Assembly: GCA_029448655.1 (NCBI GenBank)
Contig: JACCLO010000013.1
Location: 1,922,001-1,986,000, forward strand
Length of the DNA stretch: 64,000 bases
Source of the DNA: Wolfiporia cocos
Lineage: Eukaryota > Basidiomycota > Agaricomycetes > Polyporales > Phaeolaceae
Direction: 5' to 3'
Position 1 is the stretch's first letter; every line of letters starts with the position of its first letter. The position numbers and the translations under genes are program-made. Of the stretch, positions 3,468-61,619 are shown piece after piece. A model generated the notes under the pieces. That model saw only the letters and a program-made list of their open reading frames with translations, did no database searches and had not been told where the DNA came from.

Positions 3468-4530
3468 TGTCACAGACTTAGGTCTGGGGTATTTTACTCC
3501 ATTTTATTGCAGGTTCCCTGCCCCCATGACTCACTGCCTGCAAACTCCTAGCACTGCCCACCTTCTTATCTAGTTAGCACCAGGTACAGCACCTGTTAGA
3601 TAGATAAGATAAGTAGTACTAGCATCCCAGTCACATGTCTTGTACTTACATAAGATAAGCTGTACATGACAACACCATAGTTATGCCATTACTGGCTGTG
3701 CATGGACTATATCATTTAGGGTAGGCTAAAGTACTAAAGTGCCCCCCATGTAAATATATGCAATGTTCTGAAGTTAACACCTCAGAACTCTTATTCTAGG
3801 CATTCAGGGCTTAACACCTGGGGCTTACCTCTCATCATCATGTGTGCCACCTTGAGTCTCTATCTCTTAGACTGCTTGTCTGGGGGACCGTCTTAGTGGG
3901 TACATTGTATGGCACCACAACAGCCTTTTAGGCTCTAGTATAGTTGTCACAGAACGTCCCATAGGGGGTCTTGACATCCCTTACTGTATTGCAGAAGCGC
4001 CTCTAGGCTGCGAGGCTAAGTCTTTACTTACAGTTTCCTCACGTCGTGCCCATGTTATCTTATCAGACCATCTAACCTTGTAGATTAGCGCTGTAGGGTA
4101 GCGCGCACCTCAGGTACTCACTTAACGGTCACATGTAGTGTACATAGCACCCCTAGTCACATGACTCCTTAGTTACTGCGCACAGGCCAGTAGTTTAGGG
4201 CTGGGCTAGTAATATAGTCGCTCATGTATATAACGTACGACAGAATGGGGCTTACTCCCCATTCTTGAGATTCTCGACATTGGACCTCTGGTCCCTTTCT
4301 TCTAGTCTCTGCGACGCTGGTGTGTGATGGCACCAACACTCTCTCTCACTCACACTTGCTAGTCTGGGTATGTCGACGCTTGGGCATGGGTAGAACCAGT
4401 CACCCTATGCCGCCGCCCTTCGTTCACTGCTGCTGGACGCGCTTGTGCGCTGTGGGCGTTATGTGCCCCCCCATCCTTGTAGGCCGGTCACACAGACTTG
4501 TAAGTCTGTGTCACAGGTTTGTTTGTGTCA
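3468..4530 (+). repeat. Compound LTR remnant with a second LTR inside
   Basis: The outer unit begins TGTCACAG and ends TGTGTCA. It is bordered by CTTGG at 3463-3467 and 4531-4535. Its middle is replaced by a second LTR-like unit (3945-4513). Without the inner unit the outer LTR would be about 490 bp, similar to its relatives. A degraded TATA region and an imperfect hairpin (TCTGAAGT..ACCTCAGA, near 3770-3790) occupy the same relative place as in other copies. Confidence 0.7.
3945..4513 (+). repeat. LTR of the TGTCAC family, nested
   Basis: It starts TGTCACAGAACG and ends TAAGTCTGTGTCA. It carries the family layout: TGTATATAA at about 4225, then a perfect 9-bp stem AGAATGGGG/CCCCATTCT with loop CTTACT (4242-4265), then GATTCTCGACATTGG. 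It sits inside the LTR at 3468-4530. No matching 5-bp duplication is visible (ATAGT before, CAGGT after), so it may have arisen by recombination or its flanks may have mutated. Confidence 0.7.
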
Positions 4531-5130
4531 CTTGGTATTGTTTAGTACTGGCAGTCTCAAAGCCCTCTCTATAGGGACAGTCTCTCTTGAATGCATCTAT
4601 CAGATATAATGAGACCCCTTGACCTAAAACTCACTCTGATAGACTTTGAAGTTAGAAACTGGCTAGGTGAGTGGCTAAGATGTGCAGCAGTAGTGTAAGT
4701 GGCTAGTGCAGCATGTCACAGATGAATTGTTCTAAGGTCTTAGGCCTTAAATGAGCAGCTTATATACATGACATTCACTATAGACTATACAGTGACTTAC
4801 AAAACTGTTGATGAGATTGCTTAATTCACATTGCTTTGGTTATATCTCAAACTATTCTGTATGAAATATAATGAATGTAATGGCATTTCAAAGCCATACA
4901 TCTATGCTTCAAAATGGGGTCTCTACTCCAATACCTGATGATGTTGTCAGAGAGATATGCCATTTTCTTTAGAGGTCACCCTTGTCAACAGTTTTGTAAC
5001 TGACAGCTCTGGTTATGGAAATCTTTCATTATTTTATTTTGTAGGCTATGTAGTGTGGGAATAATAGTCATGTGATGATATAAGAGACTCATAAACAAGC
5101 ACAAGAACTCACTTGCTTCTGACCACCATC

Positions 5131-6863
5131 ATGCACCAGCCCATTTCTGCTGATACCATCCAACACATCCTCTTTTTGCTGCATCAGGGCAAAACTTGTT
5201 GTCAGATTGGGAAGGAGACTGTTGTTCACTATTCAACAATTAGTAAACTGTGTGCACAGCATTGCTCTGGACTTCCCAAGGCTAAAGGAGGCTGCCCTTC
5301 TATTCTTACCACTACCAACCTCCACTATGCCACCTGTCTTATTGGAACTGACAAGGCTAGCACTGCTCCTGCAGTGGATAGGGCCCTATCAGATGTTACA
5401 GGAAAGACAGTCAATGCACAGACTGTGTGCAGAGCACTAAAGAAAGTTGGGATGAAGGCTGTGGTGAAGTGGAAAAGGCCCAAGCTTACTGCACATCATA
5501 AGTCTACAAGAATGGACTTTGCTCTAGCCCACCAGCATTGGACTCTGGATGACTGGATGCAGGTTATATGGTCTGATGAGACTAAAATTAACTGTTTGGG
5601 GTCAGATGGGAGGTAATGGGCATGGAAGAAGCCTGGAGAAGGACTTAGTGACAGGCTGGTTCAGGGTACCCTCAGGTTTGGTGGTGGATCATTGATGATG
5701 TGGGGCTGTATGAGCTGGGAGGGAGTAGGTGTCAGAATGAGCCCAGACACAAGAGGACTGAGTAGGATGTTACTTGATTAAAACCAAGCTGGGAATCAGA
5801 CTTGGTGGGTTTCTATTATATATACATGAGTTTGTGTGTGTCCCTATGTGTCTCGTATACATGTAATGGTTTAGTAGTGTCTGGGTAGTGAACTAGAGCT
5901 AATAGACTTTGTTAGACCTTTGTCAAGGGTTTCTGAGAATTGTAACAGGTGTGATATGACTGGGGATCTGCGATGTGTGGTAACCACGTGTATCTACTGA
6001 TCCCTGAATTGTGATTGAGTTAGAATTATATGAATGCTTCCTGGAATGTATAGGTGGTTCTGATATTCTCAGGAATGCTTCTGTGAAGTATAAACTTTAA
6101 TGAAAGAAGCAAGCTTAGTTCTTGTGTGGCTTTTGACTAAATATATCTCTGGAAGATCAGGAACATGTCAAACCTTATGTTTGAATGTCACCTTGTGGTA
6201 GCCTTGTGGTACTGGGATTATTAGAATGTTTCCTAGGGCTTCTGGTGTGTTGTGATAGTGGTATGGAATTTATTGGTTCGTCTTCTTTGGGGCTTCTGTG
6301 ATAATGGGATTTATCGGTGTTATTGCTTTATGGGTTTTATTGGAGGGTTTAGATGGAACTGGATTGTCTTTGGATTGAACCGTCTGAGATGTGAGTTGGT
6401 TTTGAATTTATTATGACTGGTTCTTGGAATCCTGACAGTAGGGTTTGCATGCAGAATTGATGGAAAGATGGACTCAGACCTCTATGTAAGCATTCTGAAG
6501 GATGAGCTTCAGAATAACTTGGAGCATTGGGGGAAAACTGTGGAGGAGATGGTATTTCAGCAGGACAATGACCCCAAGCACACTAGCAAGAAGGCACAGA
6601 AATCGCTCCAAGAGCATGGTATCAAGACTATGGTGTGGCCTGTTCAGTCTCCAGACCTTAATCCAATAGAACATCTATGGAGCCACCTCGAAAGAAAACT
6701 TGGAGATTATGAGGAAGCACCCAATGGGATCACCCAGCTATGGGAGAGGGTGGAGAAGGAGTGGGAGGCTATTGACATGTCTGTATGTCAGAACCTGATC
6801 CAAAGTATCCCAGAGAGGGTAGATGCAGTGTTGAAAGCCAAGGGAGGATACACCAAGTACTAG
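5131..6863 (+). pseudogene. Tc1/mariner DD34E transposase, broken
   Basis: This is the cut-and-paste transposase of the surrounding element. The N-terminal part has helix-turn-helix-like sequence for end binding (about residues 5-60). The catalytic Asp lies in WSDETK, the second in QQDND and the Glu in SPDLNPIEHLW, with 34 residues between the last two: a DD34E triad. I chose ATG 5131; the open frame extends a few codons further upstream without a canonical start. The frame is broken by a TAA at 5614-5616 where Tc1 relatives continue into a WxWKKPGE segment, and by a 708-bp solo LTR at 5730-6437. After the LTR and one copy of its target site the frame resumes in phase, so the LTR struck a gene that was still readable there. 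It ends at 6863. It is inactive as it stands. Confidence 0.9.
5730..6437. repeat. Solo LTR inside the Tc1 transposase
   Basis: It begins TGTCAGAATGAG and ends CCTGACA. The direct repeat GTAGG borders it at 5725-5729 and 6438-6442. It differs from the TGTCAC family in sequence and lacks their hairpin, so it is a separate family. Removing it with one target copy restores the transposase frame. Confidence 0.85.
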
Positions 6864-9396: not shown

Positions 9397-9827
9397 TGTC
9401 ACAGATTTCCTCTGTTGACGCTAACGCTTAGCATATTGTCCTGGGATGGGGTCGAACCCTCGGCCCTAAGCCCTGCTTGTCACGTGACCCCTCAGATCTT
9501 CGTAATCTTATCTAATCAGCTGACTCGGCTTATGTACACTACCTACATGTGACCATGAGGACTAGCGCTTACACACAGACCCTGCCTTTAGGGTGGGCCT
9601 GCTAGTCAGTAATGTACATGCATGTATATAGGCCTGGTCGACTGGGGCTTACTCCCCAGTCTTGTTCTCTTTGTTGTGGGGGTGTTTCCCCTCACTCTGT
9701 TACTCTCCGTGTGCCTACCTCTCTGAGTCATCGCTGCCCTCGTTAGCAACCTCGGTTAGGGCCTCTCCTAGTCTTGTGGATAGGGGTTATTCCAGGCATC
9801 TAGGTGTGTGGGAGACAGACTGTGACA
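9397..9827 (+). repeat. Solo LTR, TGTCAC family
   Basis: It starts TGTCACAGATTTCC and ends CTGTGACA. The direct repeat TAATT lies at 9392-9396 and 9828-9832. A TGTATATA box precedes the perfect stem GACTGGGG/CCCCAGTC with loop CTTACT (9640-9661). It is closely related to the copy at 12093. Confidence 0.9.
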
Positions 9828-11500: not shown

Positions 11501-11991
11501 TGTCACGGTTTTTACCTGACGTTAAGGCTAACGCTTAGTCTCCGGGTTCTATCCCGCGCCTCCTCAGGCATATGGTCACATGATTACGCGCTTACCTTGT
11601 GGTGTAGTGGTATAGTTGCCCCCATAGCAGCGTAGCTAACCACGTGCTTAGGTCGTTCAGTAGTTATGTACTGTATCATGTGATGTACTGCGCGCACGGT
11701 CCCTTACTGTAGGGTAGGACTACTCACGTGCCTCTTAGCACACTCATGTATATAGTCTCTGCACTGAGGTCCTTAAAGACCTCATGCTTGTTATTCTAGA
11801 CGTTGGGGCTTGTCCCCCTGTATACCAACTCTACCCCTGCGTGCGCCTGCTGGCTTAGCCACCCCTTATACTTGCTCGTCTGCGCCTCGTCACTGCGGTG
11901 TGGGGTTACCCCCAAACGACTTGCGTGTTAGGATTAGGGCTACTAGGATAGCGGTACACAAGTTATACGGTATGAGGGTATAACTGTGTCA
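11501..11991 (+). repeat. Solo LTR, TGTCAC family
   Basis: It starts TGTCACGG and ends CTGTGTCA, with CACTT duplicated at 11496-11500 and 11992-11996. The family hairpin is at 11765-11784 (stem TGAGGTC/GACCTCA, loop CTTAAA). It lies in the 5' part of the decayed transposase. Confidence 0.9.
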
Positions 11992-12092: not shown

Positions 12093-12538
12093 TGTCACAG
12101 ATTATTTCTGTTGACACTGACGCTCAGCATATTGCCCCGCGCTGGGGTTGAACTCACGACTCCAAGCCTCGCTTGTCACGTGACCACGTAGATAGTGTAG
12201 TTACATCACTATCTTATCTTAGGTCAGCTGACTATAGCTTACGTATACTACCTCATGACCTGTAGCTAGACGTGTACGCACAGACCATGCCTTTAGGGCT
12301 GGTCGTCTGGCTAGTAGTGTATGATGTCTCATGTATATAAGCCATAGTCCTCTGGGGCTTACTCCCCAGAGTTGTTATTCTAGTCATTGGGGCTAGTCCC
12401 CTCTCTCTACTCTCACTGTGTGCCTATCCCCTCTGAGTTGTCACTGCCTATGTCAGCGACCTTGGTCGGGTACCTCCCTTGGTCTCACGGATGGGGGTTA
12501 TCTCAGGCATATAGGTGTGTGGTAGGTGGACCATGACA
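12093..12538 (+). repeat. Solo LTR, TGTCAC family
   Basis: It starts TGTCACAG and ends CCATGACA. AATCT is duplicated at 12088-12092 and 12539-12543. ATGTATATAA is followed by the stem TCTGGGG/CCCCAGA with loop CTTACT (12351-12370). Confidence 0.9.
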
Positions 12539-12586
12539 AATCTTGTGCTCAGATGGTATATGTTTTTATCACCAGCAGTGTCTTGG

Positions 12587-13145
12587 TGTCACGGATGTGC
12601 CCAGGGGGCCACTGTACGTCTCCTCGCCTTAGTTGTATGTGCGGCGCTAGGCGTACGCCGCACCGCTACGCTAACGCTACTCTCACGTCGCGCCCAGATA
12701 CTGTATATCACCTGACCGCCTGGTTAGCGCTGTAGGGTAGCGCGCGCCTCAGGTACAGTCACTTATGGTCACAGTATGTCATGTAGCGTTACTTGTCACC
12801 TGATCCCTTAGATACGGCGCACAGGCCATCTCTTTAGGGTAGTACTAGTAGTATCCACGCTCATGTATATAAGATACGACAAGATGGGGCTTACTCCCCA
12901 TCTTTAGGATTCTCGTCATTGAGCGCAAGCTCCTCTCTTACTATTGCTGTGATGCCTGCTGGCCCGGGGCCCGTATCTCGTCGTGCTTGTCTGTGAGCCG
13001 CCATCGTTACCTTGACGTACACAAGGGATGTCTGGCTCCCACGTTGCCTCTGCGTTCAGCGCTGGCGTGGTGACTTATAGGCTCGCCTCACGGCGTGTAT
13101 GGTTCCCCCTGAGCCCAGGGGTAGCACAGACGTAAGTCTGTGACA
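12587..13145 (+). repeat. 5' LTR of the TRIM
   Basis: It runs from TGTCACGG to CTGTGACA. It contains TGTATATAA (12864-12872), the hairpin at 12881-12904, then ATCTTTAGGATTCTCG, which includes the predicted self-primer. An LTR of this type supplies promoter and RNA start for the element. Confidence 0.93.
12881..12904 (+). promoter_or_regulatory. Conserved LTR hairpin (AAGATGGGG / CCCCATCTT)
   Basis: A perfect 9-bp stem with loop CTTACT lies about 10 nt past the TATA box. The same position in other LTRs of the window has a stem of different sequence but kept pairing. It falls near the expected U3/R border; whether it works as DNA or RNA is unknown. Confidence 0.8.
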
Positions 13146-13146
13146 T

Positions 13147-13158
13147 AATCCTAAAGAT
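13147..13158 (+). promoter_or_regulatory. Putative self-primer binding site
   Basis: AATCCTAAAGAT begins two bases past the 5' LTR, where a retrotransposon primer site belongs. It is the exact reverse complement of ATCTTTAGGATT at 12900-12911 in the LTR, about 36 nt past the TATA box and so near the likely RNA start. In the Tf1/sushi group the RNA's own 5' end primes reverse transcription by such pairing. Confidence 0.75.
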
Positions 13159-13854
13159 ATCTTACCTCCCCTCCGACGCCAACTGCGTTGGGGCCGAGGG
13201 TTCTCTACATACAGGTGGCCATGGCAACGCGGCGGGGCAGCCTCTGGTAGAAGCACCAGAGGTCCGTACTTTTACGAGCCCCCACGAAGCGTTAACCCAG
13301 GCAAAGCCACCGTATGGAATGAGTAAGCAAGTCCGCCCCCTTTGAACTAAGGTAGCAGGGATCGACCAGCGTAAGCCCCGTTTGAGGACCCGCCGCCGTC
13401 ATTACCCATAATGTGCGTGCGCATGGAGGTCTAGGGCAGCTCGGCCATCATCCCTGGGCGGCAGGAGCAAGCGACAAGAATACCTTGACCAGTGGGTATG
13501 CGAAGGAACCCGCAAGGGTCTCCAACCCCACAACGACGGTCCCGAAGGTTAGAGAACAGCACACCACGACCGACTATCGAAAACGACACAAGCGGCATGC
13601 GGCAAGCGGAGGTACACGGGGACGAAGGGGACCCCATTTAAAAAATAACCCTGTAACCTTTTGGACGAATACCGAACCGATACCGATCCCGCCCAACTTC
13701 GCTCAAGCCACCGGCGGACGGACCGTGCCCTCGGATGCTCCCCACCCTCCGCAAAGTAGGGATGGGCCGTGGGTCAAACAAGCAACCAAGGCAGCGGGCG
13801 CCGTAGTTTTCAAGATAGAACGTCAGGGACGACGCTTTTTGAGAGGGGGGGTAA

Positions 13855-14413
13855 TGTCACGGATGTGCCCAGGGGGCCACTGTACGTCTCCTCGCCTTAG
13901 TTGTATGTGCGGCGCTAGGCGTACGCCGCACCGCTACGCTAACGCTACTCTCACGTCGCGCCCAGATACTGTATATCACCTGACCGCCTGGTTAGCGCTG
14001 TAGGGTAGCGCGCGCCTCAGGTACAGTCACTTATGGTCACAGTATGTCATGTAGCGTTACTTGTCACCTGATCCCTTAGATACGGCGCACAGGCCATCTC
14101 TTTAGGGTAGTACTAGTAGTATCCACGCTCATGTATATAAGATACGACAAGATGGGGCTTACTCCCCATCTTTAGGATTCTCGTCATTGAGCGCAAGCTC
14201 CTCTCTTACTATTGCTGTGATGCCTGCTGGCCCGGGGCCCGTATCTCGTCGTGCTTGTCTGTGAGCCGCCATCGTTACCTTGACGTACACAAGGGATGTC
14301 TGGCTCCCACGTTGCCTCTGCGTTCAGCGCTGGCGTGGTGACTTATAGGCTCGCCTCACGGCGTGTATGGTTCCCCCTGAGCCCAGGGGTAGCACAGACG
14401 TAAGTCTGTGACA
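13855..14413 (+). repeat. 3' LTR of the TRIM
   Basis: This copy has the same length as the 5' LTR and shows no difference from it by eye. It is preceded by the polypurine tract and followed by the target copy CTTGG. Confidence 0.93.
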
Positions 14414-14418
14414 CTTGG

Positions 14419-18808: not shown

Positions 18809-19384
18809 TGTCACGGTTCACCCCTGGGGGGTACCAGCATCCCTTACTATTGTTGTATGGGCGCCGCTGCACGTGCGCGCACCCCGCTCACTTTATGTTT
18901 CCTCTCAGTCACGCCCTAGTTACCTCCAGGATCACCTGACCCAGTAGGCGCGCACTAGTCAGGCAGCGCGCGTGCCAGGTACTCACATGATAGGTCACCA
19001 TATAGTTACATGTTACGCTACTTGTACAGTCACACTTACGTTACATGCGCACAGGCCATGTCTGTAGGGCAGGCTAGATACTTAGCGTTCCAACACATGT
19101 ACTTATACTGCAGCGATGAGGGCTTACTCCCTCATCTTTGAGATTCTAGTCTTTGGGCCTTGGCCCCTTTCTTTCAGTGCACGTGATGAGTCTCTGCCCC
19201 GGGGGCCCTCCTCGACTTACTTGTCTGTGCGCCGCCGTGTTACGTCGCCACTAGGAGTCCTTAGGATGGGTTCGCCTTTGGTACAGCCAACCTGGTCACC
19301 GCTGTCGCGGTTGCGCACCGCCTCGTTAGGCGCGTTGGGACTCCCCTGCTCCGCAGGTCCTCACAAACCTGTAAGTTTGTGACA
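18809..19384 (+). repeat. Solo LTR, TGTCAC family
   Basis: It starts TGTCACGG and ends GTTTGTGACA. The flanks ATAAA (18804-18808) and ATAAG (19385-19389) match at four of five bases. The stem GATGAGGG/CCCTCATC with loop CTTACT (19115-19136) is followed by TTTGAGATTCTAG. It is close to the TRIM LTR in layout and still rich in CpG. Confidence 0.82.
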
Positions 19385-20909: not shown

Positions 20910-23900
20910 ATGTCCTGCTTGCCCATTTTCCACCGTTATCTGGAGGAGCATGAGCAGCAGGTGGACGATAGCTTGCAGGCTGTTTGCATAATTCTCGATA
21001 CTGCCAGCGATGGCTTATCGTTTGCCCCTATCAGCGGCCTTGATACAGCCGCTTCCGCTCTCTCGAGCTTGATCACCATGGTTATCGTATGTTTATTTAC
21101 ATGCCCATCACAGACACGTGCTTACAGAGGCGTACCGTAAAGAAAGCCAGAGAGAACGTCAAAGCAAAGGGAGAAATAGCAGACAGTGCTGGAGAACTCG
21201 CGAAGTGTATAAAGGACACAATGCAAGATGCCTTGAAACCGTCTCCTCAGCTACTGAGACGCGTAGAAGAACTTGGCAAGTATGTCAGATGGCTGACATA
21301 GTATTACCCAACTTACTTACCCACTGCGTTGAGAAAATTGGAAGAGCTTGTGCATCAGGCCGAAAAGCTATCAGCGGGTTCCTTCTTACTGCGGTGCCTG
21401 CGTAGTGAACAAAATGCTGCGATTCTCGATGGCATCAAGGAAGGCATCAATGTGGCGCGCGGCAACTTCATGGTAAATAGACACTGCATAAAGTCTTTGG
21501 TATGGACTCACACTCTTGCCATAGCTACAGGGTGTTGTCATGGTGGAGATACAAGGTAACAAAATCGCAGAGAATGTTGAAGGCATTGGACAAGTAGTCA
21601 TGGTGGGTGTCTCCGGCTTGCTGCAATAAACGTTTGCCTCATGAGGCGTATAATGCGTTTTAGGAAATCAAGGCGAATCAGCAGGTAAATAGTAAGTACG
21701 CAGGCTGTCGCTTTTCCCACATTCTCATTATCGTTCCCTTCAGAGAACGAGGAGATATTACGATCATTGCCTCGCGCCGACGAGGCAGAATACCGTTCAG
21801 CAGTAAATGAGCTCAAGAACGGCTATCTTCCTGGAACTCGAGTATCGTTGCTCGATCAACTGGAAGGCTGGGCCACAGGCAGCGATCCCGCCCTCCAAGC
21901 GTATCCAATATACGTTCTCTGTGGAGCAGCAGGAACAGGTAAATCTACCATAGCGTATGAAATATCAAAGCGATTGGAGCAAAGGGGACTTCTTGGAGCA
22001 TCCTTCTTTTTTGTTAGGGGATCAGAGGGGCTCAGCTCCACCCGGCTCGTATTCCCTACTATTGCGTATCAGCTGGCGCGTCTGCACCAGGACTTCTATG
22101 CGGTCATTGTTGATGCATCGAATAATCATATGCAACATGGGACGAAACAACAAATGGACTACGAACTAGATGATCTAATCATCAAACCCCTCAAAAAGGT
22201 GGCAGCCGACCATAGTCCCGTCGTGATCGTCATCGATGCCGTCGACGAATGCACCGAGCTTGCCACTGTACGTGTCTCAAGGATGCTCCATCTCCTCATG
22301 AAGCGCGTGCCTGAGGTTCCATTTCCCCTTCGAGTACTCATCACGACCCGCCCGGAGATGCATATCGAGGATGCATTCATGACCTTTGAGGACAAGCAGC
22401 TGTTCATTATGGAAGAGATTCCTCGACCGTCTGTCGATGAAGATATCAAGCTCTACATCTCTAACAGTCTCAGATCAATTCGCTACAGCAAACAACTCCT
22501 CGATATGCGTCCCGATTTTGTCGACCACCTTACAGCAAGATCCGAGGGATTGTTTATTTATGCAACCACAGCGGTCGGCATGTTACGTGACGACCCTGAG
22601 CACCTCACGAGCGTCGCGGACCAACTGCTTTCCGATCGAACGGTGGCCACCCTTACCTCGCTCGACAGCCTGTATCTCTCAGTGCTGACAAATGCATTTA
22701 CATCGACAGCGCTTGATCGCTCAGACAATCGGAAATGTATCCAGCAGATCCTGGGGAGCGTAGCTCTGCTACAAGACCATCTATCGCCGAAGGTTCTCAG
22801 CGAGCTCATGAATATCTCCGTGGAAGAAACTCGCTATACTTTGGCCCGCCTAGGCTCCGTGATCTACTTTGACAGCGAGAACCCAGAGGAGCAGATCCGG
22901 CCTCTCCACGCCAGCTTCCCACAATTCCTAGTCGATGCTGAACGCTGTACAGATCCTCATTTCTTCATAAACCCTGTCATCCAACATGAGCAGCTCGCCA
23001 TCGCATGTCTGGAGCTTCTAAATACAGAACGTGTACTTCGACGCAATATTCTCCGCCTTCCCGACCGTTCAGCACTCAAGAAGACAATCCAAGATATTAC
23101 CGACCGCGTACGACAGAGTATTCCTCCGCATGTGCAGTACGCCTGCACTCATTGGGCGACGCATGTCGCTGCTGCAGCACAGTCGTCGCGACTGCGGTCT
23201 CTGTTGGATTCGTTCTGTTCTACCAAGCTACTATTATACTTGGAGGCATTGAGTGCAATGAACAGATTGGAGACGGCGGTGCCATCCCTGCTAAAGGTCA
23301 AGGCCTGGTACCAGGTAAGTAGTCCTTCGCAACATACCGTGTTGTGGAACTAATGGCTCAATAGACATTTGACGAAAGTCATGAGAGCTTGACTCTCAAT
23401 CTCCTCGATGACTGTTATCGCATCGTTTTGGAGTATTACGTCCCCATCGACAACTGTCCCGAGCATCTATATATCTCTGCTTTACCGATGGTCCCGTCTT
23501 GCAGTCTATTACAGGCGTATTCAGGTTCACCCAATGCTATCCCGCCTATCCGAATGCTCACAGATCGTGACGGCGCTTGGAGTGCGTGCCTTCGCGTGGT
23601 TGAAGGGCATACACAGCGTGTCACGTCTGCCAAATTCTCACCTAACGGTCGATGGATTGCCTCGAGCTGCTGGGATCGCACTGTCCGCACTTGGGACGCC
23701 GAGTCCGGTACACCGATGGCGATCATGCGAAGCCACAATGACTCGGTCGAGGATGTAGACTTCTCGCCTGATAATCAGCGAATTGTGTCAGGTTCCAGCG
23801 ACGGCACGTTGCGTATCTGGAACGCCGCGTCAGGTGCTCCTCTCAACAAGCTCCCCGCCAGACACGGCAATGTCTTTGCCGTTGCCTATTCCCCTGACGG

Positions 23901-25236
23901 ATCTACGATTGTATCGGGATCATTTGACAACGCGCTGCATCTCTGGGATGCTCGCGATGGAAAAGAATTGGAACTCGTCGACGCAGCAATCGATTGCGTT
24001 AATTCAGTGGCTTTCTCACCAGATGGATCCATGGTTGCATCAGCATCAAGCGACAGCATCGTACGCATCTGGGATGTACGCGGTCGGTACCTTACCAAGA
24101 TCCTTCGCGGTCATACAGACATGGCGAAGTCGGTGGCGTTCTTTCCGGACAACGCCCGAGTAGTATCGGGAGCAAGTGACAATACGGTTCGAATATGGCT
24201 CCTCGAGACGGAAACGTGCCTAAAGGTATTGAAAGGCCATCTGCATCGCGTTTTTGCTGTCGCAGTATCGCCCAATGGTGACCGGATTGCTTCCGGCGCA
24301 GAGGACAACACAATCCGTATATGGGACTCACAGTTGGGCGACTGTCTAGGCGTATTGAAGGACCACACAAGCTGGGTCTTGTCAGTCTCGTTCTCGATGC
24401 GAGGCGATCGGTTGGTCTCTGCATCTGATGACCAAACCGTTCGAATTTGGGACCCCACGTTACTCGGTGCTAATCCCGTAGGACATACATCTGCGGTTAC
24501 GTGCATAGTTTTCTCGCACGATGGAGCTCGGGTAGCGTCATGTTCGGAGGATGCCACGATCATGATTTGGGATGCAAGTTCTGGTCAGCGCTCATTAACG
24601 TTGGAGGGACATACTAGCCGATTACAGACCATTGCCTTTGCGCCCGATGGAACGAAGCTAATCTCGGGTGGATGGGATAACCTACTGAATTCATGGGATA
24701 CCGCAACAGGAGCGCTAGTGAATTCCGTCAAAGCCCAGGAAACTGGAATAGAGGAACTCGCATACTCTCCGGACGGCCGACTAATCGCGTCCGGGGCAAA
24801 CAATCTTGATCCCATCATCAAATTGTGGACAGCTTCAGACTGCGCCGTGGAGCGAGAAATCACAGTCGATTTCAAAGGCGAACCGATCGATATGATCTCA
24901 CGACTAGAGTTTTCTCCTGATAGCACCAAACTATATGCAAGCACTCTCAACGGACTAGAGTATATATGGGATTGCGCCACAGGAACCAACCTCAAGTTCG
25001 CAGAGAATAATTGGGGCGCTGGTACGGATCGTCGCAGATTCGTGGAGAAGGATGATGGGTGGCTCGTTTTGAGGGAGACAGGTCAAACCGTATGTTGGTT
25101 GCCAGGATCCAAGAGGGGCAATGATGTTGGGGGCGACATAGTGTGCGCATGCTACGGGGACAAGTACGCAGTTGGGGGCGGTTCAGGACGAGTCACCATT
25201 CTAGATCTGACTGATCGAGTGGAATCAATGTGCTAG
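20910..25236 (+). CDS. NLR-A: NACHT-WD40 STAND protein with N-terminal helical domain
   Basis: Provisional exons are 20910-21086, 21128-21279, 21334-21472, 21531-21602, 21664-21684, 21746-23314 and 23365-25236, together 1333 codons in frame. An in-frame TAG at 21299 falls inside the 54-nt intron 21280-21333. The N-terminal ~190 residues are helical and resemble the HeLo/MLKL-type four-helix domain (inference). The NACHT ATPase follows, with Walker A GAAGTGKST and Walker B VIVIDAVDEC, then ITTRPEMH. After the intron at 23315 come about 11 WD40 repeats (FSPDG..RIWD pattern) and a tail with DDGWLVL..WLPGS. STAND proteins of this kind act as ATP-dependent switches that open on ligand binding and oligomerise; fungal ones act in heterokaryon incompatibility and defence. 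The ligand is unknown. Exons 4 and 5 are the least certain. NLR-B (54731-59948) is a paralogue with matching intron positions. Confidence 0.9.
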
Positions 25237-49951: not shown

Positions 49952-50265
49952 ACAGCGACCCACAAAACTGTTGCAACGTTTGCAACATTTTCATTCCCTG
50001 GTCCATATCTCAGGAATATCTACTCCAAACCAGACTAATAGGACCTCATTTGAAAGCCATGCTTCTCAGCCTTCATTTGGGCCCATGATCATTATGTAAC
50101 CATTTCTATATCAGGAAATATCAGCCACTTTCTCAGACATAGCATTGCAATGGTTTTGTGGCTGATAGCTTTGGGAGTATAAAAGGCTTATAATGGCCAG
50201 TGATAGGGCCCATACTCACAGGTGGTATTTTATATCAGTACTTATGCAGAGTATCTTCCATTTGG

Positions 50266-50808
50266 TGTTACTATCCACGCAGAAACTACTGAATATCTTT
50301 TGCTGATGCCTCACTGGAGGAAGGGACTTAGCGTTCAACCACTTTATCGTGTGTCTACTTCTAGGGATCCCCACTCAACCAGTGACCCTCATTTCATGTA
50401 TAACAACCCTATGCCCATGGTCTTGCGACGTATCAGGTTCTAGTTGATATCTTGTGTCTAACCACGGGACTTCTATGTTTCAGCCACTGTTGCGCTCAAC
50501 TGCAACACTTCATACTTGTTATCTTAGCACGCTAGCCTTATGGACTTAGTGGTAGCAGTACCAAGGACACTATGACCCCAATTACAGAATTGTAGTATAA
50601 AACCTGATGTAAATACTGGTCGAGTTCCTCAGCTCAACCTTGTTGAATTACAAGGATCTTATACTCATTCTCAAAGGCTTGAGCAATTAAGCCTACAGCT
50701 TGTATATTGACGCTCTGACTCTGCCAAGTCCGACAAGTAGTGCACTACTTAATACGCTGAGTAACTCGACTTAGTTATTTCAGCTGAATGGATATTCGAT
50801 CCGTAACA
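50266..50808 (-). repeat. Solo LTR, TGTTAC family, reversed
   Basis: It runs from TGTTACTATCC to CGATCCGTAACA on the plus strand; the minus strand starts TGTTACGGATCGAATATCC like the copies at 16080 and 52623. The direct repeat TTTGG lies at 50261-50265 and 50809-50813. It is nested in the left arm of the foldback element. Confidence 0.9.
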
Positions 50809-51893
50809 TTTGGTACCTCATTGATGCATCAAACCCACTCCTCACAAATCAACAAAGAAAATGGTGCCATTGGATAACCTCCAGTGCTTCACTTGCCAAT
50901 TACTGAGTTGAAGTATGGTGTATATGGTTTGATGTGACCAATATTACATTAAAGCTTCATCTGTATAGCAGAGACATCATATTTAATCCCTTCCTCTGCA
51001 GCAGTGAAGGTTATTTTGTGATGGATTCCCATGCTTTTGTGGTGTTTCCCTGGGATATTCAACAATAACCTCAGGTAGGGCCATGTCAATTTGTCATAAA
51101 TAGCTGCACATGTTAGTATGATGTCTCTGGATGGGTATCTGCAAGATTAACATGATATGAAAGTCCACAACACATCAATTTTCACCTCAAATATACAGCT
51201 TCTCATATATCTGCTTTGGTCCATGCTATATCCTGATACCCAGCAAACATAACACCTTCACAGTGGCTTAGAATGATAAATAGCAACTCAAATCGATTAT
51301 ATCTACATTGCAAGGTTATGTCTGACTAGAGCTGACTTTGTATACATTCACCTCATCTGACCCCTAAGCCATGAATCATTTGTAGGTCAAATATGACATG
51401 TCATGTGCTTTCACATGATGGCAGTGTTGCAGATACCTATCCAGAGACATCATACTAACATGTGCAGCTATTTATGACAAATTGACATGGCCCTACCTGA
51501 GGTTATTGTTGAATATTCCAGGGAAACACCACAAAAGCATGGGAATCCATCACAAAATAACCTTCACTGCTGCAGAGGAAGGGATTAAATATGATGTCTC
51601 TGCTATACAGATGAAGCTTTAATGTAATATTGGTCACATCAAACCATATACACCATACTTCAACTCAGTAATTGGCAAGTGAAGCACTGGAGGTTATCCA
51701 ATGGCACCATTTTCTTTGTTGATTTGTGAGGAGTGATTGAAGTGGGCTTGATGCATCAATGAGGTACCAAATGGAAGATACTCTGCATAAGTACTGATAT
51801 AAAATACCACCTGTGAGTATGGGCTCTATCACTGGCCATTATAAGCCACTTATACTTCCAAAGCTGTCAGCCACAGAACCATTGCAGGGCTAT

Positions 51894-52391
51894 TGTCACA
51901 GTTTTACTGTGGCATGGTAGAATATTACCCCTCCCCCATCATGAACTCATGACTTCAAGTATTCCATCACCTGACTTATGATTAGATTGATGTGTGGTAG
52001 TAGCTAGATAAGATAACCCATTAGTAATGTGACGTATATGTAAGCATTCTATAGTTTACCTTAGCACTGTGCATGGGGCCAGTTCAGGGTAAACACTTAT
52101 GTAGTAGTGTGCTTGCATGTATATATACTAGTATCATCTGGGGCATACACCTCAGACTGTTCAATGTATCTATAGGGGTGTGTCCCTCTCTACTCTGCCA
52201 CTCTCTGCTGCTGTGACTAGCCTCGCTAGCCTGAGACCTCGACATTTGCTCTCTACCTCTCAAGCCAACCCCTGGGCATTAGAGTGGTAGCCTGTCACTG
52301 CAAGGACCTTAGGAGATGGGTGCAGGCATTGGATGTTGGGTGGTTAGCCATAGGACCGGTAGTTGGGGATGGGGTCACAGGTACTTTGACA
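51894..52391 (+). repeat. Solo LTR, TGTCAC family
   Basis: It starts TGTCACAG and ends CTTTGACA. GCTAT is duplicated at 51889-51893 and 52392-52396. The hairpin TCTGGGG/CCTCAGA (52137-52156 region) keeps pairing through one G-U pair; the loop is CATACA-like. It is nested in the right arm of the foldback element. Confidence 0.9.
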
Positions 52392-52622
52392 GCTATGTCT
52401 GAAATAGTGGCTGATATTTCTTGATATAGAAATGGTTACATAATGATCATGGGCCAAAATGAAAGCTAGAAGCATGGATTTCAGATGAGGTCCTAATAGT
52501 CTGGTTTGGAGTAGATGATCCTGAGATATGGACCAGGGAATGAAAGTGTTGCAAACATTGCAACAGTTTTGTGGGTCACTGTATATTGAGTAATGTATCT
52601 GCCACACTAAGCATCCAGGTTT

Positions 52623-53159
52623 TGTTACGGATCGAATATCCGCTTCAGCTGAAATAACTAAGTTGAGTTACTCAGCGTATCGAATAGCGTACTATTCGTT
52701 GGACTCCGCAGAGTCGAGCGTCGATATACTGGCTGCGGGCTTAATTGCTTAAGCCTTTGAGAACGAGTATAAGATCCTTGTGATTCAACAAGGTCGAGCT
52801 GAGGGACTCGACCAGTATTTACAGCAGAGTCTTTATACTACGTTTCTGTAACCGGGGTCATAGTGTCCTTGGTACTGCTACCATTAAGTTCATAAGGTTA
52901 GTACGCTACGATAACTAAGCTGAAACGCTGCGGTTGGGTGCAACAGTGGGTGAAACACAGAAGCACAGTGGTTAGACACCAGATATCCGCTAGAGTCTGA
53001 TACGTTACGGGACTATGGGCATAGGGTTGTTGTACATGAAACGAGGGTTGCTGGTTGAGCAGAGAACCCTAGAAATAAACGCACGGCGATGCGGTTGAAC
53101 GCTAAGTCCTCCTCCCTAGCGAGGCATTGAAGATATACGAAATTGTACAGACCATAACA
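52623..53159 (+). repeat. Solo LTR, TGTTAC family
   Basis: It starts TGTTACGGATCGAATATCC and ends ACCATAACA, collinear with the copy at 16080. The flanks (GGTTT and GAACA) do not match, so the target duplication is lost or the copy arose by recombination. Confidence 0.82.
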
Positions 53160-54730: not shown

Positions 54731-57700
54731 TCAAATTCCAATTAATGCACACATCTGTGTTACATGCCAAAGATGTTGTTCAAGAGTATACATGATGATT
54801 ATGATGCTGTGAGGTGGAGAGGTTGTGATCCTGAATCCATGTGAGTATATATATGATGTTTGAATCTGGAAGTACTCACATGCATGTGTTAACAAATCTG
54901 ATAGATTGAGAATGATGACTATGCCTGAATCTGACCCATATGCATACATTGCTCTGTGGCATGCCTCTGGCTGCCAGTCTTGACCAGGCCTTCTTACCTG
55001 AGGAATCCAGTAAATCCTCCTCTGTGTGTCTCTATCCATGACCCATCCATCATGCTCATACAGCCACAGATTGGGCTCTGCTTGTGAAACACCCCAGTCA
55101 TTTGCTGCAAAGTCCAGAGCTTCCCAGTCTTTGCATGACCAAATCATGGGACTGGTACCTAGGTCAAAATGTGCATACAGCTGACTGCTATCTGGAGAGA
55201 ATTCAAGGTAATTGACCCATTCATTATCCTTTATGGTGAGTGGGATCTCTTGGATGAGCACATAATTGGTGGCTGACCAGATCCCTATGGTGGTATCACC
55301 ATTGGCTGCCAGCATCATGCCATTTGGTGAGAATGCCACTCTGTGAACCATGCCACCTTCCCACTTGACAGGATGTCCCACCCACCCTGCACTGAGAGTG
55401 GCCATTGCACTGCTGGATGACTGAAATTGTGAGGCATCATAGTGTGCATCAGATGACCCTCCACTTGGCCCCTGATTGTCACTATACCAGATTATGATGC
55501 TTCCATCTCTTGCACCTGTGGCCAGCTGTGCTCCATCATGTGAAAATCCCACAGCCACAACCTCATCTGCATGCCCCATCAACTGTGAGTTGGACTGCTT
55601 TGCAATGGCTTGGAGGTCCCATACACGGACAGTCCCATCAATCGAGCCAGATGCAAGACGGTCGCCTTTGGGTGAGAACCCAACGGACCATACCTCTCCA
55701 GAATGTCCCCTGAGGATGGCGAGGGTGGCCCCGGATTGCGCATCCCACAAATGGATGCTGCAATCGTCTGACGCTGAGGCAATAAGGTCACCTTTGGAGG
55801 AAATTGCGACCGAATTGACTTCGTCGGTGTGACCTTCTAATGTTTGCATGCACTGTGCTGACGTTGCATCCCAGATGCGGATTGTCTTGTCCTTAGAGCC
55901 GGAGGCAATTTTGGCTCCATCTGGGAAGAAGACAGCGGACCGCACCGCGTCGGTGTGGCCAGTGAATGTAGCTTTGGGATCAAGAGAATGTGCATCCCAT
56001 GTCCGGACGAGCCCATCGCTCGATGCTGTGACAATGCGTGCACCGTCTGGCGAGTACGCCACAGAGCTTGCACTGGTGTGTTTACCCACAATAGCTGATT
56101 GTAGACATTCACCGGTGATTGGATCCCATATATGCAGCATTGCCTCCACCAATGTTGAAGCCTGCTGCTCCACATCCACATCGGAGCCCATTTTCGGTGC
56201 TGCGGCAATGGTGCACTTGGTGTTAGTGCGGGAGCAGGTGACAACAGTACGTCCATCTGGTGAGTATGCAATACACCTGACTGCCTCAATGCGTACAGCA
56301 TCCTCCGGAAGCCGCAACGCTTTGGTAAGAGCTCCCGAAGCCGTGCTCCATATGTTGATCTCGCCGTTGAAGGAGCCGGAAGCAGCGAACAGGTTGCCAG
56401 GAGAGACGGCTACTGAGTACACCCCGATCGTATGACCGCGCATCGTGATTAAAGTGGTACCCGACACTGCATCGAACATTCGAACCGTTTTGTCAGGGGA
56501 TGTAGATGCGATCCATCGGCCATTTGGTGAGAATGTCACACTATTCACAGGACCAGTATGATCTCCTATCACACGGAGGCATGCATCCCATTGCTGACGT
56601 CGAGGAGAGAGGAGGGAAACGGGCAGAATCTCATTCGCGTACGTCCGGTACATCTCACAATCCGGTGCAAATAGAAGGCAGTGATAGATCGACCCTGGAC
56701 ATGCAGCGATGTCGGTGAAATATTCCAGGGAGAAACGATAGGCGTCATCTAAGAGTGCAGAGGCGGATGAATCTGTAGAACGCTGTATTGAATGGTAAGA
56801 TCAGGGTCGGTACCTTTGACGAGCAGATTGAAGTCAAGTTCCTCACTCACCTTACACCAAGCGCGGACATCAGGCAAGACATATGCGGCTGTGTCAAGCC
56901 TGTCGAGGATGCTCAACACCTCCAGCCAATGCAGTAACTGGGTTTGGCCAAAGTTCTTCACCATCCTCGTGAGCTCTTCATTGGGCTCGGAGCCGGATAG
57001 ATGGGTCGCCCAGTGTCTGGCAGCGTATTGCACATGCATAGGTATATTGTCCTGAATGCGCTCCTGTAGGTCGTTGACAGAAGCTATGGGTGTCATGGTA
57101 TCAACTAATTGCAGGATATTTCTGCGCAGGCTGTGAGGAGCAGTGAGAATCCTGAGACACGCAGCCGCCAACTGTCCATGGTACGCCTTTTCCGAAATGT
57201 AATAGTCAGGGTTGGTGCATCGCAATGGATCAATGAGGAACTGGGGAAAGCTAGCATGTAGTGGCCGTATAGGCTGGTCGGTTCCTGGGCTATATAACAC
57301 CACAGAACCAAGTTTAGACAATATGGACTCGATGTCGTCTTGAGATATATTGAGAAGGGATCGCATACTGGCTTCGTTGAGATGATCCTGAAGCAATGCG
57401 ATCGCACCTAAGATGGCTAAAGCTAGAGAATGGTCGTTCTTCCTCCGCTTCAGAAACGACGATGGAAGGGCCGCGGCTAGAACGACCAGGTAGAGATTGT
57501 CCAGTTCGCTCAACGTAACCTGCTTACCCACTGACAGCAAATCGTCTGTGAGCTCGGCGATGCGCTTGGGTCGTGACTCCTCGCGGATGGTCCTAATTAC
57601 GGTTGATGCATAGATGAACAATCCATGCGCGGACTTGGTCAGGTCATCAATCACAGTGGGTCGCAACGTCAGAACCTCGTTGAATTGTGGCAAGGAAAAC

Positions 57701-59948
57701 AACTTCGCAGAGAAGAAACGTCTGATGTCTCCATCGACGATCGTGCGGGAAATAGCATGCAGCCTGTATGGCTTTGCGCTCCGAGCGAACTCGACTGATT
57801 CGAAGGCCCTTTCGATGTGCAGCTCCGGACGCGTCGTAAGTAAGACACGCAAGGGGTATGCGAGCGAGCACAGCCTATTGGCAAGCAAATGTAGAATCCT
57901 AGGAATGCGTTCTAGCTCGGGATCCGTGCATTCGTCCAGCGCATCCACAATGACCACCACTGGATAGGGATGCTCTGATACAGATTTTAGAGGAATGATA
58001 ATTCCGTGGTCTAGCTGATGCTCGATATCGTGGTTCTGTGTGCGAAACGAGGGATTGCGGCATGCATTGATAATATGGGAGCGCATATGTGGTTGCGATC
58101 GAGCAAGTTGGTATGCAATCGTGGGGAATACATAGGCTATGCAGCTGAGGTTGGCGTCTCCGCGCACGAAGAAGAATGATGCGCCCAGACGGCCCTTCTC
58201 GTCCAGTCGCTTTGCGAGCTCGTGTGCGATCGTCGACTTTCCGGTCCCTGCGGCACCACTTAGAATGAAGATGGATGCCTGCTGTCCCCCGTCTGTCGCC
58301 CAATCTTCCAACGTCTCAAGCACTTCCGCACGTGTTCCTGGAAGGTATCCACTCTTTGCCACATTGATAGGCGAGCCATACTCTGCCTGATCCCGGTGAG
58401 AAAGCCTGTCCAGGAGCGCTTTGGACTCTGATGATGCGATGTGCCAATGATAATGATCAGTCTAAGTAGCTTGCGACACAGTGAACATATGATACAACCT
58501 TCATCCATAATCCACTGAATGTACGGTCCAATATACTTTGTCAGCACAACAATGAGTCACGACGAGTAGAAACACGCACGTCATCCAATTTATGATCAAC
58601 AGAGTGCACTATCTCGGCGGTCGTCTCCACGCCAGCATTAATTGACTCAACTTGGGATCCCAGCTGGTCAACTCCACCAGTAATCGAGGTGAGCCTCTGT
58701 GGAGACGCAAAGCGCAGCGTTCATGAGCACCGAATAGTCACTTAATAAGTATTACAGCTGACCCACCTCTTCAGTTCTTCTGGTGGTCGAATCGATGGCA
58801 TTTACCGCTGTCTTCATCCGTTCCACGACAACTTCTACCCTCACAACTGCACATGCCTACAACACCCGGTGAGCGACCGCGTTTCATCCCATAATGTTTT
58901 CTGTAATCACCTGAAAGTTCATACGTGCGTCGCTTATCTTCTGCCTTATGCTGCTGAGCGTCGATGCATTTCGCTCACTGAAGAGTACCTGTGTAAACAT
59001 GTTGGCCTTTGCAATCTTATCCGCTTCCGTTGAGATGTCATTCAGTGCCCTGAATCGTTCACGTGAGCATTCAAATATATGCAATGTAAGTGCCGCCTTA
59101 CGCGACCAGATGTGATATCGCCTGTTGCAAAGCATCATTGGAGTATGAGGTTTGGCTGGTTCGTATTTCCTGCACGGTTGTCGACATTTCCGCAGGACCG
59201 GTAGACAGGGTCTCCGTAGAAATGCTCGCTGATGCTGAGAATGATTCCACATGAAGCCTGTGTCCGCTAACCAGTTCATATGCCGACTTGACAGCCTCGA
59301 CGAGTTGCTTGATACTTTCTGCTACCTCTTTCGCATTTCCCCTGGCCTCCTGCAGAACAGTTGTTATGCAATAAGTAAAATAGGTCGTCTGGCTGCGCCG
59401 ATGACAAAATAACGTACCACTATTCTATCGAGCACGCATTTCAGGCCTGATATGACAATGTCAAGCCCTGGAGCGTTAGGAATGAGCGATGCACATGCGC
59501 CAAGGCCTTTCACCATGTCTCGAGCAGTTGATAACGCGACGTCCAATTTCTGATCGCTGAACTGCTTCGTCTTCGCTTTAGCAGATAATGCACTGGATCC
59601 ATCACCAGGAGTAGGGCTCTGGCTGCCTTTGTCCCGGTGGACCAGAGATGTAAGTCTACCCAGCACAGACGACGAGCGTCCAGAAGATGAAGCACTGTCA
59701 ACGGCAAGAGATGAGGATCTCGAAGCGGGGTTCGACGTCGTATCAGAATGTCCGTCGCTGCGGTTGCGACGGCTGGACACCTTGCCAAATCCTGAAACCG
59801 GACGTCCGCGAGCCGAAGGGGCTTCGCTCGGATGCACAACGATTGTTGGAACTGTAGGCATCGCCGCCTGCGACGGGGCATTTGAAGGCCCGTCGCCCAC
59901 TGGAGCTTGACGCTCTTCGTGTTCTCTGCTGCGCTCTGCAATATCCAT
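54731..59948 (-). CDS. NLR-B: NACHT-WD40 STAND protein, paralogue of NLR-A
   Basis: Provisional exons, read right to left: 59948-59418, 59349-59102, 59049-58911, 58856-58767, 58696-58580, 58425-56856 and 56772-54731, in frame, 1578 residues. A Ser/Pro-rich, probably disordered extension (about residues 1-110) precedes a helical N-terminal domain alignable with NLR-A (IPNAPGLDIVISGLKCVLD.., ..RMNFQ). The NACHT domain has Walker A GAAGTGKST, Walker B VVVIVDALDEC and LTTRPELH. Intron 56855-56773 matches the NLR-A intron at 23315. About 10 WD40 repeats follow; one carries an extra ~20-residue segment (KCTIAAAPKMGSD..). The tail DGWVMD..IYWIPQ is shared with NLR-A. A role as an ATP-driven recognition switch is inferred from the family; its ligand is unknown. 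The last 895 bp contain no CpG although the frame is open. The last ~40 residues are uncertain. Confidence 0.9.
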
Positions 59949-60186: not shown

Positions 60187-60500
60187 TGTCAGAAATTCCC
60201 TAAAACGATTGCAATCCAAGGGGCATTGCGATTGGATGGCAATCTGAATGCGATTAGTCACAATGTGACTGGCGTAGCGTCAGCGATTACAATAGCGCAT
60301 ACGAGCATTACGTAAACATTACAATCCCTTGCAATGCGGCTGCAATGCGATTGCGATGGGATTGCGATGGGATTGTGATGGGCATTGTGATGGCATTGCA
60401 ACCAAATCGTTCCCATTGCAATGATCGAAATCGTATCACAAGACCTGATCATTGCGATCGCTTGCAAGCGCTTGCAAGCTAGATTTGAAATTTGTGACAT
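60187..60500 (+). repeat. Inverted repeat arm 1 (ATTGCAAT-rich)
   Basis: This 314-bp arm begins TGTCAGAAATTCCCTAAAAC and is packed with GCAATG/ATTGCRATS words. It matches the arm at 61306-61619 in inverted orientation with one difference seen by eye, and a more diverged inverted copy at 60643-60948. It starts about 240 bp upstream of the NLR-B start codon. Confidence 0.85.
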
Positions 60501-60642
60501 ATTGAAGCCGACCATATCTGTGTGGCTTGATGCAGGGACGGTCGTGTTTGTGGTGTCAATATGCGTTGAAAATAGATCTCTGTGGCTCGATACACGTAGG
60601 ACGGTCGTATTTGCGCTATCAGTACAATGCGGCGAATTTATC

Positions 60643-60948
60643 GTGCAAGCCATCGCAATGATCAGGTCTCGTGATGCGATTTCGATCATTACAATGGGAA
60701 CGATTTGGTTGCAATGCAACTGCAATCGCATCGTAATCGCATCGCAATCACATCACAGTCCCATTTCAAGGGCATTACAATTGCATTGCAGCCGCATAGC
60801 AAGCGATTATAATGTTTACGTAATGATCGTATGCGCTATTGTAATCGCTAACGCCGCTCCGGTCACATTGTGACTATTTGCAATCGAATTGCTAGCCAAT
60901 CGCAATCAAATTGCATTGGATTGCAACCGTAATAGGAAAGTTCTGACA
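60643..60948 (-). repeat. Inverted repeat arm 2, diverged
   Basis: It ends AGGAAAGTTCTGACA and shares its whole layout with arm 1 in reverse, with many substitutions. Between arms 1 and 2 are two imperfect copies of a ~65-bp word around GGACGGTCGT (60525-60625). No target duplication is seen. Confidence 0.75.
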
Positions 60949-61305
60949 GCTGCCACGGCCTGAGCATCATGCAATCACAATGTTCATGTGGGCTAGTATG
61001 ACTGCTGCGACGTAGGCGCGCCATATGCCATCGTCTGATACCTACCTCTCGATACGGCGTCACGGCAGTTCCATCCCTATGCGTTGGCTGACGTTGTCGC
61101 CGCGGAAGCTCCTTCGCGCAGCCGGGGTCTGGATAGTCTTGGCAGTGTTAGAAGCACGGTCAACGTCTCGCCTCCGGGAGCCAACGAATTTAAACCTTCA
61201 GCTTCAGTCCTGAGTTTTTATCCACTGTTCACCTATTTACTTGAATTGCGCTCATCCTCGGCACTCCAGCTATCGGGCGCGAAGTCAAGACCGAGCGACA
61301 CACAC

Positions 61306-61619
61306 ATGTCACAAATTTCAAATCTAGCTTGCAAGCGCTTGCAAGCGATCGCAATGATCAGGTCTTGTGATACGATTTCGATCATTGCAATGGGAACGAT
61401 TTGGTTGCAATGCCATCACAATGCCCATCACAATCCCATCGCAATCCCATCGCAATCGCATTGCAGCCGCATTGCAAGGGATTGTAATGTTTACGTAATG
61501 CTCGTATGCGCTATTGTAATCGCTGACGCTACGCCAGTCACATTGTGACTAATCGCATTCAGATTGCCATCCAATCGCAATGCCCCTTGGATTGCAATCG
61601 TTTTAGGAAATTTCTGACA
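61306..61619 (-). repeat. Inverted repeat arm 3, near-identical to arm 1
   Basis: This 314-bp stretch runs from ATGTCACAAATTTC to AGGAAATTTCTGACA. Its reverse complement equals arm 1 except for one base that I can see. No matching flank duplications were found. Confidence 0.85.

Follow-up and report, generated by a model that had tools for sequence, protein, structure and literature searches.

A TRIM-like family of short LTR retrotransposons in Wolfiporia cocos that very probably primes its own reverse transcription

The window analysed here, a 64,000-nucleotide stretch of DNA, contains at 12587–14413 an element of 1827 bp in total whose two LTRs, each 559 bp long, are identical and have the ends TG..CA. 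The features of the element, in window coordinates, are as follows.

12582..12586, + strand: left target-site duplication (TSD) CTTGG, read from the sequence
12587..13145, + strand: 5′ LTR, TGTCAC...GTGACA, 559 bp, identical to 13855–14413
12866..12872, + strand: TATA box TATATAA, 34 nt ahead of the primer
12881..12904, + strand: hairpin AAGATGGGG / CCCCATCTT, the stem of which varies with the primer type and is weaker in the ATCTTTGAGATT type
12900..12911, + strand: putative self-primer ATCTTTAGGATT, predicted to be the first 12 nt of the RNA
12915..12918, + strand: 5′ side of a second helix, GTCA, pairing with 13141–13144
13141..13144, + strand: 3′ side of the second helix, TGAC, close to the LTR end, identified by covariation
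13146..13854, + strand: internal region, 709 bp, without recognisable protein domain (Pfam search, LTR bounds)
13147..13158, + strand: primer-binding site (PBS) AATCCTAAAGAT, one base beyond the LTR
13841..13851, + strand: polypurine tract (PPT) GAGAGGGGGGG, followed by TAA and the 3′ LTR, read from the sequence and from a recurrent junction pattern
13855..14413, + strand: 3′ LTR, identical to the 5′ LTR, with the second primer copy at 14168–14179
14414..14418, + strand: right TSD CTTGG, read from the sequence

A preliminary description of this DNA had pointed out that the 12-mer at 13147–13158 is the exact reverse complement of 12900–12911 in the element's own LTR, and both the match and its coordinates are right. 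A single T (13146) separates the terminal CA of the LTR from this 12-mer. The TATA box does lie close to the primer, at a measured distance of 34 nt rather than the approximately 36 nt first given. The element had also been called coding-free, and indeed a Pfam search with its longest open frame (205 aa, 13386–14003) gave nothing at E ≤ 1.

Related families have left solo LTRs or LTR fragments elsewhere in the window, at approximately 3945–4513, 9397–9827, 11501–11991, 12093–12538 and 18809–19384, the one at 12093–12538 being situated just to the left of the element. In each of them a TATA-like box and a hairpin of the same kind accompany a different primer-like sequence. The PBS predicted from the solo LTR at about 3945–4513 was absent from the genome when searched for. 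The window also contains an open frame at 5095–5616 that matches the helix-turn-helix domain of Tc3-type transposases, long open frames at 21689–25236 and 54731–58461 that by eye appear NACHT- plus WD40-repeat-like, dense nested inverted repeats at 50139–53127 that are possibly oppositely oriented LTR pieces, and, at 60187–61619, a 314-nt inverted repeat whose arms, 100% complementary, are separated by 805 nt, along with further nested repeats. The NACHT–WD40-like frames, together with the dUTPase-bearing gypsy elements described below, would point to a basidiomycete host.

Relatives of the element were sought in the 64.4-Mb assembly of 76 contigs, where a DNA search gave at least 85 matching stretches. 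The PPT–LTR junction GAGAGGGGGGGTAATGTCAC occurs at 272 places in the genome when up to two mismatches are allowed, as against one place for the reversed pattern. Twenty of these junctions were chosen by eye as lying outside the matches listed in the DNA search, and short elements of the present kind are found at 19 of them; the exception (L080) contains a nested LTR and lacks a useful frame. From loci L001–L030, 16 elements were bounded at both LTRs, a procedure that demanded LTR matches of 300–700 nt, a TGTCAC start and a CATAATC junction and excluded broken or other copies. These elements are 1827–1908 bp long with the exception of L005, which at 3190 bp is a tandem of two units. A 5-bp TSD flanks 15 of the 16, and the two LTRs are identical in 13. 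The short elements have evidently been mobile in the recent past. Tandem arrays of short elements with common LTRs were observed at C34:147370-151942, C5:1590617-1594689 and L005/L006, with a period of about 1.35 kb (1.30 kb in L005/L006).

The preliminary description had proposed as a check that the primer site of each relative be compared with its own LTR. The PBS was sought in 31 loci (L001–L030 and L061) and, together with their upstream parts, in 19 of the 20 junction loci, using the required motif TG[TA][GC][TA]CATAATC, which any PBS not beginning with AATC would escape. This search returned 53 PBS occurrences, partly non-independent because of overlapping loci and comprising 17 distinct 56-nt LTR contexts and 40 unique 5′ segments, and in 52 of the 53 the PBS has a 12/12 reverse complement in the LTR of the same element. 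In these 52 occurrences the primer starts 236–274 nt upstream of the LTR end. The sole miss, L009, has a 5′ LTR that is apparently rearranged ahead of the primer region, and four loci (L014, L015, L021 and L023) yielded no PBS by the motif search. Six primer types were distinguished, ATCTTTAGGATT, ATCTTTGAGATT, ATCTCTCAGATT, ATCCTTAAGATT, ATTCCTAAGATT and ATCTCTTAGATT, none of which is found with a PBS other than its own; set against the primer of another type, a PBS is matched at 8–11 of 12 positions. The sixth type provided a forward test, in that the PBS AATCTAAGAGAT was read in L062 and L075 before their 5′ LTRs, and both LTRs carry the matching ATCTCTTAGATT.

The covariation of primer and PBS was assessed in an alignment of 11 distinct sequences representing five of the types. 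All 132 of its 132 cells are paired, with changes on both sides at 5 of the 12 pairs, the remaining 7 pairs being invariant, and 15 cells are changed on both sides. None of 500 shuffles did as well in percentage paired, in number of doubly changed cells or in covariation score, and 7 of 500 reached five doubly changed pairs; the number of further pair types was reached by 495 of 500, as expected where only matched types are present. When the partner was slid by 1–3 columns, 25–52% of cells remained paired. The complementarity has a well-defined end, stopping at base 12 in 45 of the 52 matched occurrences and at base 13 in the other 7, and the C that follows the primer stands opposite a T in all 52.

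All 40 unique 5′ segments have a minimum-energy fold that contains the primer–PBS helix with its full 12 pairs; the segments had been trimmed to start at the primer, a choice that favours this helix. Beside it RNAalifold places a helix of 4 bp, formed by GTCA or GACA after the primer and TGAC or TGTC at the LTR end, in which T and A are swapped on both sides in step. This second helix is perfect in 49 of 52 occurrences and contains one G-U pair in the other three, so that counting G-U it is present in 52 of 52. A third helix, which would join the LTR to the 32 nt following the PBS, was seen in 0 of 40 minimum-energy folds. In all 17 distinct LTR contexts a TATA box lies 30–34 nt upstream of the primer and is the sole one in the 80 nt searched; in the L012-type context it takes the weaker form TTATAC.

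The PBS types were also compared with tRNAs of the genome, using a partial set in which 30 of 49 listed matches were fetched and gave 26 ARAGORN predictions distinct by name and position, some of them possibly merged. Within this set the longest exact complement to any PBS type is 5–8 nt. None of the longest complements is at the 3′ end of a tRNA, and they fall in different tRNAs and at different places. Priming by a tRNA was rejected on the basis of these short complements in the partial set, in agreement with the earlier statement that no TGG-type tRNA site is present.

Two kinds of gypsy-type element with long open frames carry primer sites of the same kind. The first (L084) has a 2285-aa frame with matches to dUTPase, protease, reverse transcriptase (RVT_1), RNase H, integrase and a Tf2-1-like SH3 domain, the core integrase match being below its curated cut-off; the domain search gave no chromodomain match in this frame. 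Its LTR contains AGACTCGTCTT 32 nt past a TATA box, and the PBS AAGACGAGTCT lies one base beyond the LTR, giving an 11-nt match. The gypsy copy around L061 is a second copy of the L084 type with the same LTR/PBS match and a 5-bp TSD, ATCTG, and is interrupted by one of the short elements described above. This gypsy-type element, represented by L084, L061 and L082/L083, is abundant, and its dUTPase domain precedes the protease. The second kind (L104/L105) has a 1734-aa frame with protease-like, dUTPase, reverse transcriptase (RVT_1), RNase H, integrase, Tf2-1-like SH3 and chromodomain matches, those to the protease-like and core integrase domains being below their cut-offs. In L104 (2293–7494) the dUTPase lies between the protease and the reverse transcriptase, and the frame continues for about 380 aa past the chromodomain. 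The LTR of L104/L105, which is unbounded at its left end, contains AGCTCGACCTT 35 nt past a TATA box, and AAGGTCGAGCT follows the LTR end, again an 11-nt match.

L084 and the present element have in common the TGTCAC start and TGTGTCA or TGTGACA end of the LTR, the one-base spacer, the TSD length and 17–19 nt at the PPT–LTR junction, and show no wider homology beyond the LTR ends and this junction. The helper searches gave no candidate with a homologous LTR or leader. By eye, the best 40 of 1159 candidates in the LTR homology search include no LTR pair at the spacing of an autonomous element. With the neighbouring solo LTR as query, the best 40 of 329 matches comprise, besides the query itself, scattered matches of 72–89% and likewise no pair at such a spacing. 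The coordinates of 100 of the 272 PPT places were compared by eye with the best 150 of 1459 reverse transcriptase candidates and with the best 150 of 1126 chromodomain candidates. One close pairing of reverse transcriptase and PPT (C23:3968939 / C23:3971452) was rejected as a helper, since it arises from a short element inserted into a gypsy copy. A chromodomain match at C23:99876 lies about 4.5 kb ahead of a PPT place. Judged by these sequence comparisons, L084 is the best candidate for the helper. The existence of two long-frame gypsy-type elements with self-complementary primer sites fits the earlier suggestion that the element is a parasite of a self-priming retrotransposon.

Taken together, these data make it very probable that the short elements constitute a TRIM-like non-autonomous LTR retrotransposon family with self-primed reverse transcription of the Tf1/sushi type, the interpretation advanced in the preliminary description. 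It is supported by the compensatory changes between primer and PBS across six types, by the spacing of 30–34 nt from the TATA box in 17 of 17 contexts, by the covarying second helix and by a poor fit to tRNAs, with no match longer than 8 nt among the 26 predictions. Weighing against it are the missing third helix, the failure of the helper searches to yield an autonomous element with homologous LTR or leader, the 7 and 495 of 500 shuffles that equalled two of the covariation counts, and the PBS predicted from the solo LTR near 3945, which the genome search did not recover. The observation with which the analysis began is real, and its reading was mostly right. The proposed mechanism would begin with RNA polymerase II initiating at A12900, about 34 nt past the TATA box. 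The first 12 nt of the RNA would then pair with the PBS at 13147–13158, and the 4-bp helix between 12915–12918 and 13141–13144 would support the fold; both of these pairings covary. By analogy with Tf1, the RNase H of a helper would cut after base 12, and the fragment released would prime minus-strand synthesis. Reverse transcriptase and integrase would be provided in trans by a resident self-priming gypsy element, most likely of the L084 type. With a primer that comes from the element itself instead of a host tRNA, subfamilies could drift to primers of their own with no need to match the helper.

Three other explanations were weighed against self-priming. A chance inverted repeat has in its favour the shortness of the match and nothing else, and it is refuted by the covariation of primer and PBS, given six co-varying types and a covariation score reached by 0 of 500 shuffles; we regard its probability as negligible. 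More serious is the possibility that the paired 12-mers have a structural function, for instance in packaging or dimerisation of the RNA, and that a tRNA or tRNA fragment is the primer, for conserved pairing by itself is proof of structure and not of priming. Just one of the two extra duplexes of the Tf1 type is present here, and the tRNA anticodon loop is often used by Helenus TRIMs of fungi (PMC10886601). Against such a function, the pair is situated one base from the LTR end and 30–34 nt past the TATA box, exactly where a self-primer has to be, the pairing stops at 12 nt in 45 of 52 occurrences, and the longest tRNA matches in the partial set, of 5–8 nt, are scattered over tRNAs and places. 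We therefore consider a purely structural role unlikely.

The elements could also be decayed deletion copies of autonomous self-priming elements that have never formed a mobile family of their own. Such an origin would be in keeping with a PPT–LTR junction like that of L084 and with a frame running through the PPT that by eye resembles the C-terminus of pol. It is difficult to reconcile with 272 matches to the PPT–LTR junction, of which 19 of 20 sampled are short elements, with separate loci that have identical LTRs and TSDs, and with the lack of any full-length parent with the same LTR among the best 40 of 1159 candidates, and we consider it very improbable.

On the self-priming reading, two copies of the primer are expected in the RNA of the element, one at the 5′ terminus and the other within the 3′ LTR, and the hairpin in the LTR may bear on how the two copies are distinguished. 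The U3 arm just upstream of the predicted RNA start folds onto the first 4–5 bases of the primer and the preceding CCCC; in the hairpin at 12881–12904 the 5′ arm is upstream of this start and the 3′ arm takes in primer bases 1–5. The arm tracks the primer type (AAGATG/ATCTT, GAGATG/ATCTC, GGATG/ATCC and GGAATG/ATTCC), with looser arms, CAGATG and GCGATG, in the two ATCTTTGAGATT contexts. Over 24 LTR contexts (the 17 distinct ones, the LTR of L084, the one nested in L080 and the window's five solo LTRs), an element's own arm matches 7.7 of 9 on average, compared with 6.1 for swapped arms. The LTRs of L084 and at 11501 score 5 and 6 in the fixed frame used, yet each folds a hairpin, and in the LTR of L104 GTCGAG folds with CTCGAC in the same place (-8.5 kcal/mol). 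The U3 arm, which the 5′ end of the RNA would lack, may hide the 3′ primer copy by folding over it, so that the free 5′ copy alone could prime. We tentatively propose, as a scheme rather less secure than self-priming itself, a lineage of self-priming parasites in which primer, PBS and U3 arm co-evolve, the arm masks the 3′ copy and primers drift to private types. Since the PBS would be re-templated by the primer in each cycle, such private primers need not match that of the helper. If this is true, the U3–primer hairpin, with its similar fold in L084 and L104, would belong generally to self-priming in this genome, and it suggests a simple, testable way in which the RNA distinguishes the 5′ primer copy from the identical copy at the 3′ end.

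Self-priming by the first bases of the RNA is known from full-size elements, such as Tf1 of yeast. In Tf1 and Tf2 of Schizosaccharomyces pombe and in the Tf1/sushi group (Tj1, Tosmo, sushi-ichi) the PBS lies beside the 5′ LTR, as it does here, whereas the present element is without gag or pol. The primer of Tf1 is 11 nt at the 5′ end of the RNA (PMC7175516), compared with 12 nt at the predicted 5′ end here, and has the same length as the 11-nt LTR/PBS matches of L084 and L104/L105. The RNA 'pretzel' described for Tf1 has two supporting duplexes, one of them between the sequence after the PBS and the LTR (PMC10085805). Our second helix occupies the place of the first supporting duplex of that structure, and the other is absent here (0 of 40 folds). 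The U3 arm that pairs with the 5′ bases of the primer is a candidate difference from Tf1. The dUTPase in the polyprotein of L084 and L104 recalls the dUTPase-bearing Ty3/gypsy elements of Postia placenta, PosPlaTy3 (PMC2864245), a likeness in domain content.

Described TRIMs of ants (PbTRIM), taeniids (ta-TRIM), bivalves and plants resemble the present element in having two LTRs, a PBS and a PPT, in being non-coding and in their presumed mobilisation in trans. TRIMs are usually under about 1 kb in length. The designation TRIM in the preliminary description is borne out by the two LTRs, PBS, PPT, TSD and absence of coding sequence; the length of 1.8 kb exceeds the usual value, and as 1827 bp falls only within the wider limit of under 4 kb (PMC4558846), we use the term TRIM-like. 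The PBS is complementary to tRNA-Leu in the TRIMs of ants (PMC3532108) and taeniids (PMC4558846), a type of PBS that is not found here (complements of 5–8 nt in the partial tRNA set). The bivalve TRIMs have no clear PBS, and the paper that describes them raises self-priming elements in this connection, the parts of it drawn on here proposing no clear mechanism (PMC6934838). Helenus elements are likewise non-autonomous and present in fungi, the fungal ones with a 5-bp TSD as in our elements; part of their LTR is tRNA-like, and their author found it not to match the PBS (PMC10886601), unlike the LTR–PBS match seen here. An LTR of the Helenus type was rejected for the present element, as neither ARAGORN (bacterial code) nor Rfam gave a tRNA-like match in the LTR. 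As the preliminary description had supposed, a described self-priming TRIM, or any other self-priming non-autonomous LTR element, was not encountered in the open-access literature consulted. Self-priming here suggests that a parasite can do without the tRNA of its helper, and the many copies with six matched primer types offer a natural record of the upkeep of the match between primer and PBS. Coding-free LTR elements and self-priming, which in that literature we found described only separately, are combined in this family.
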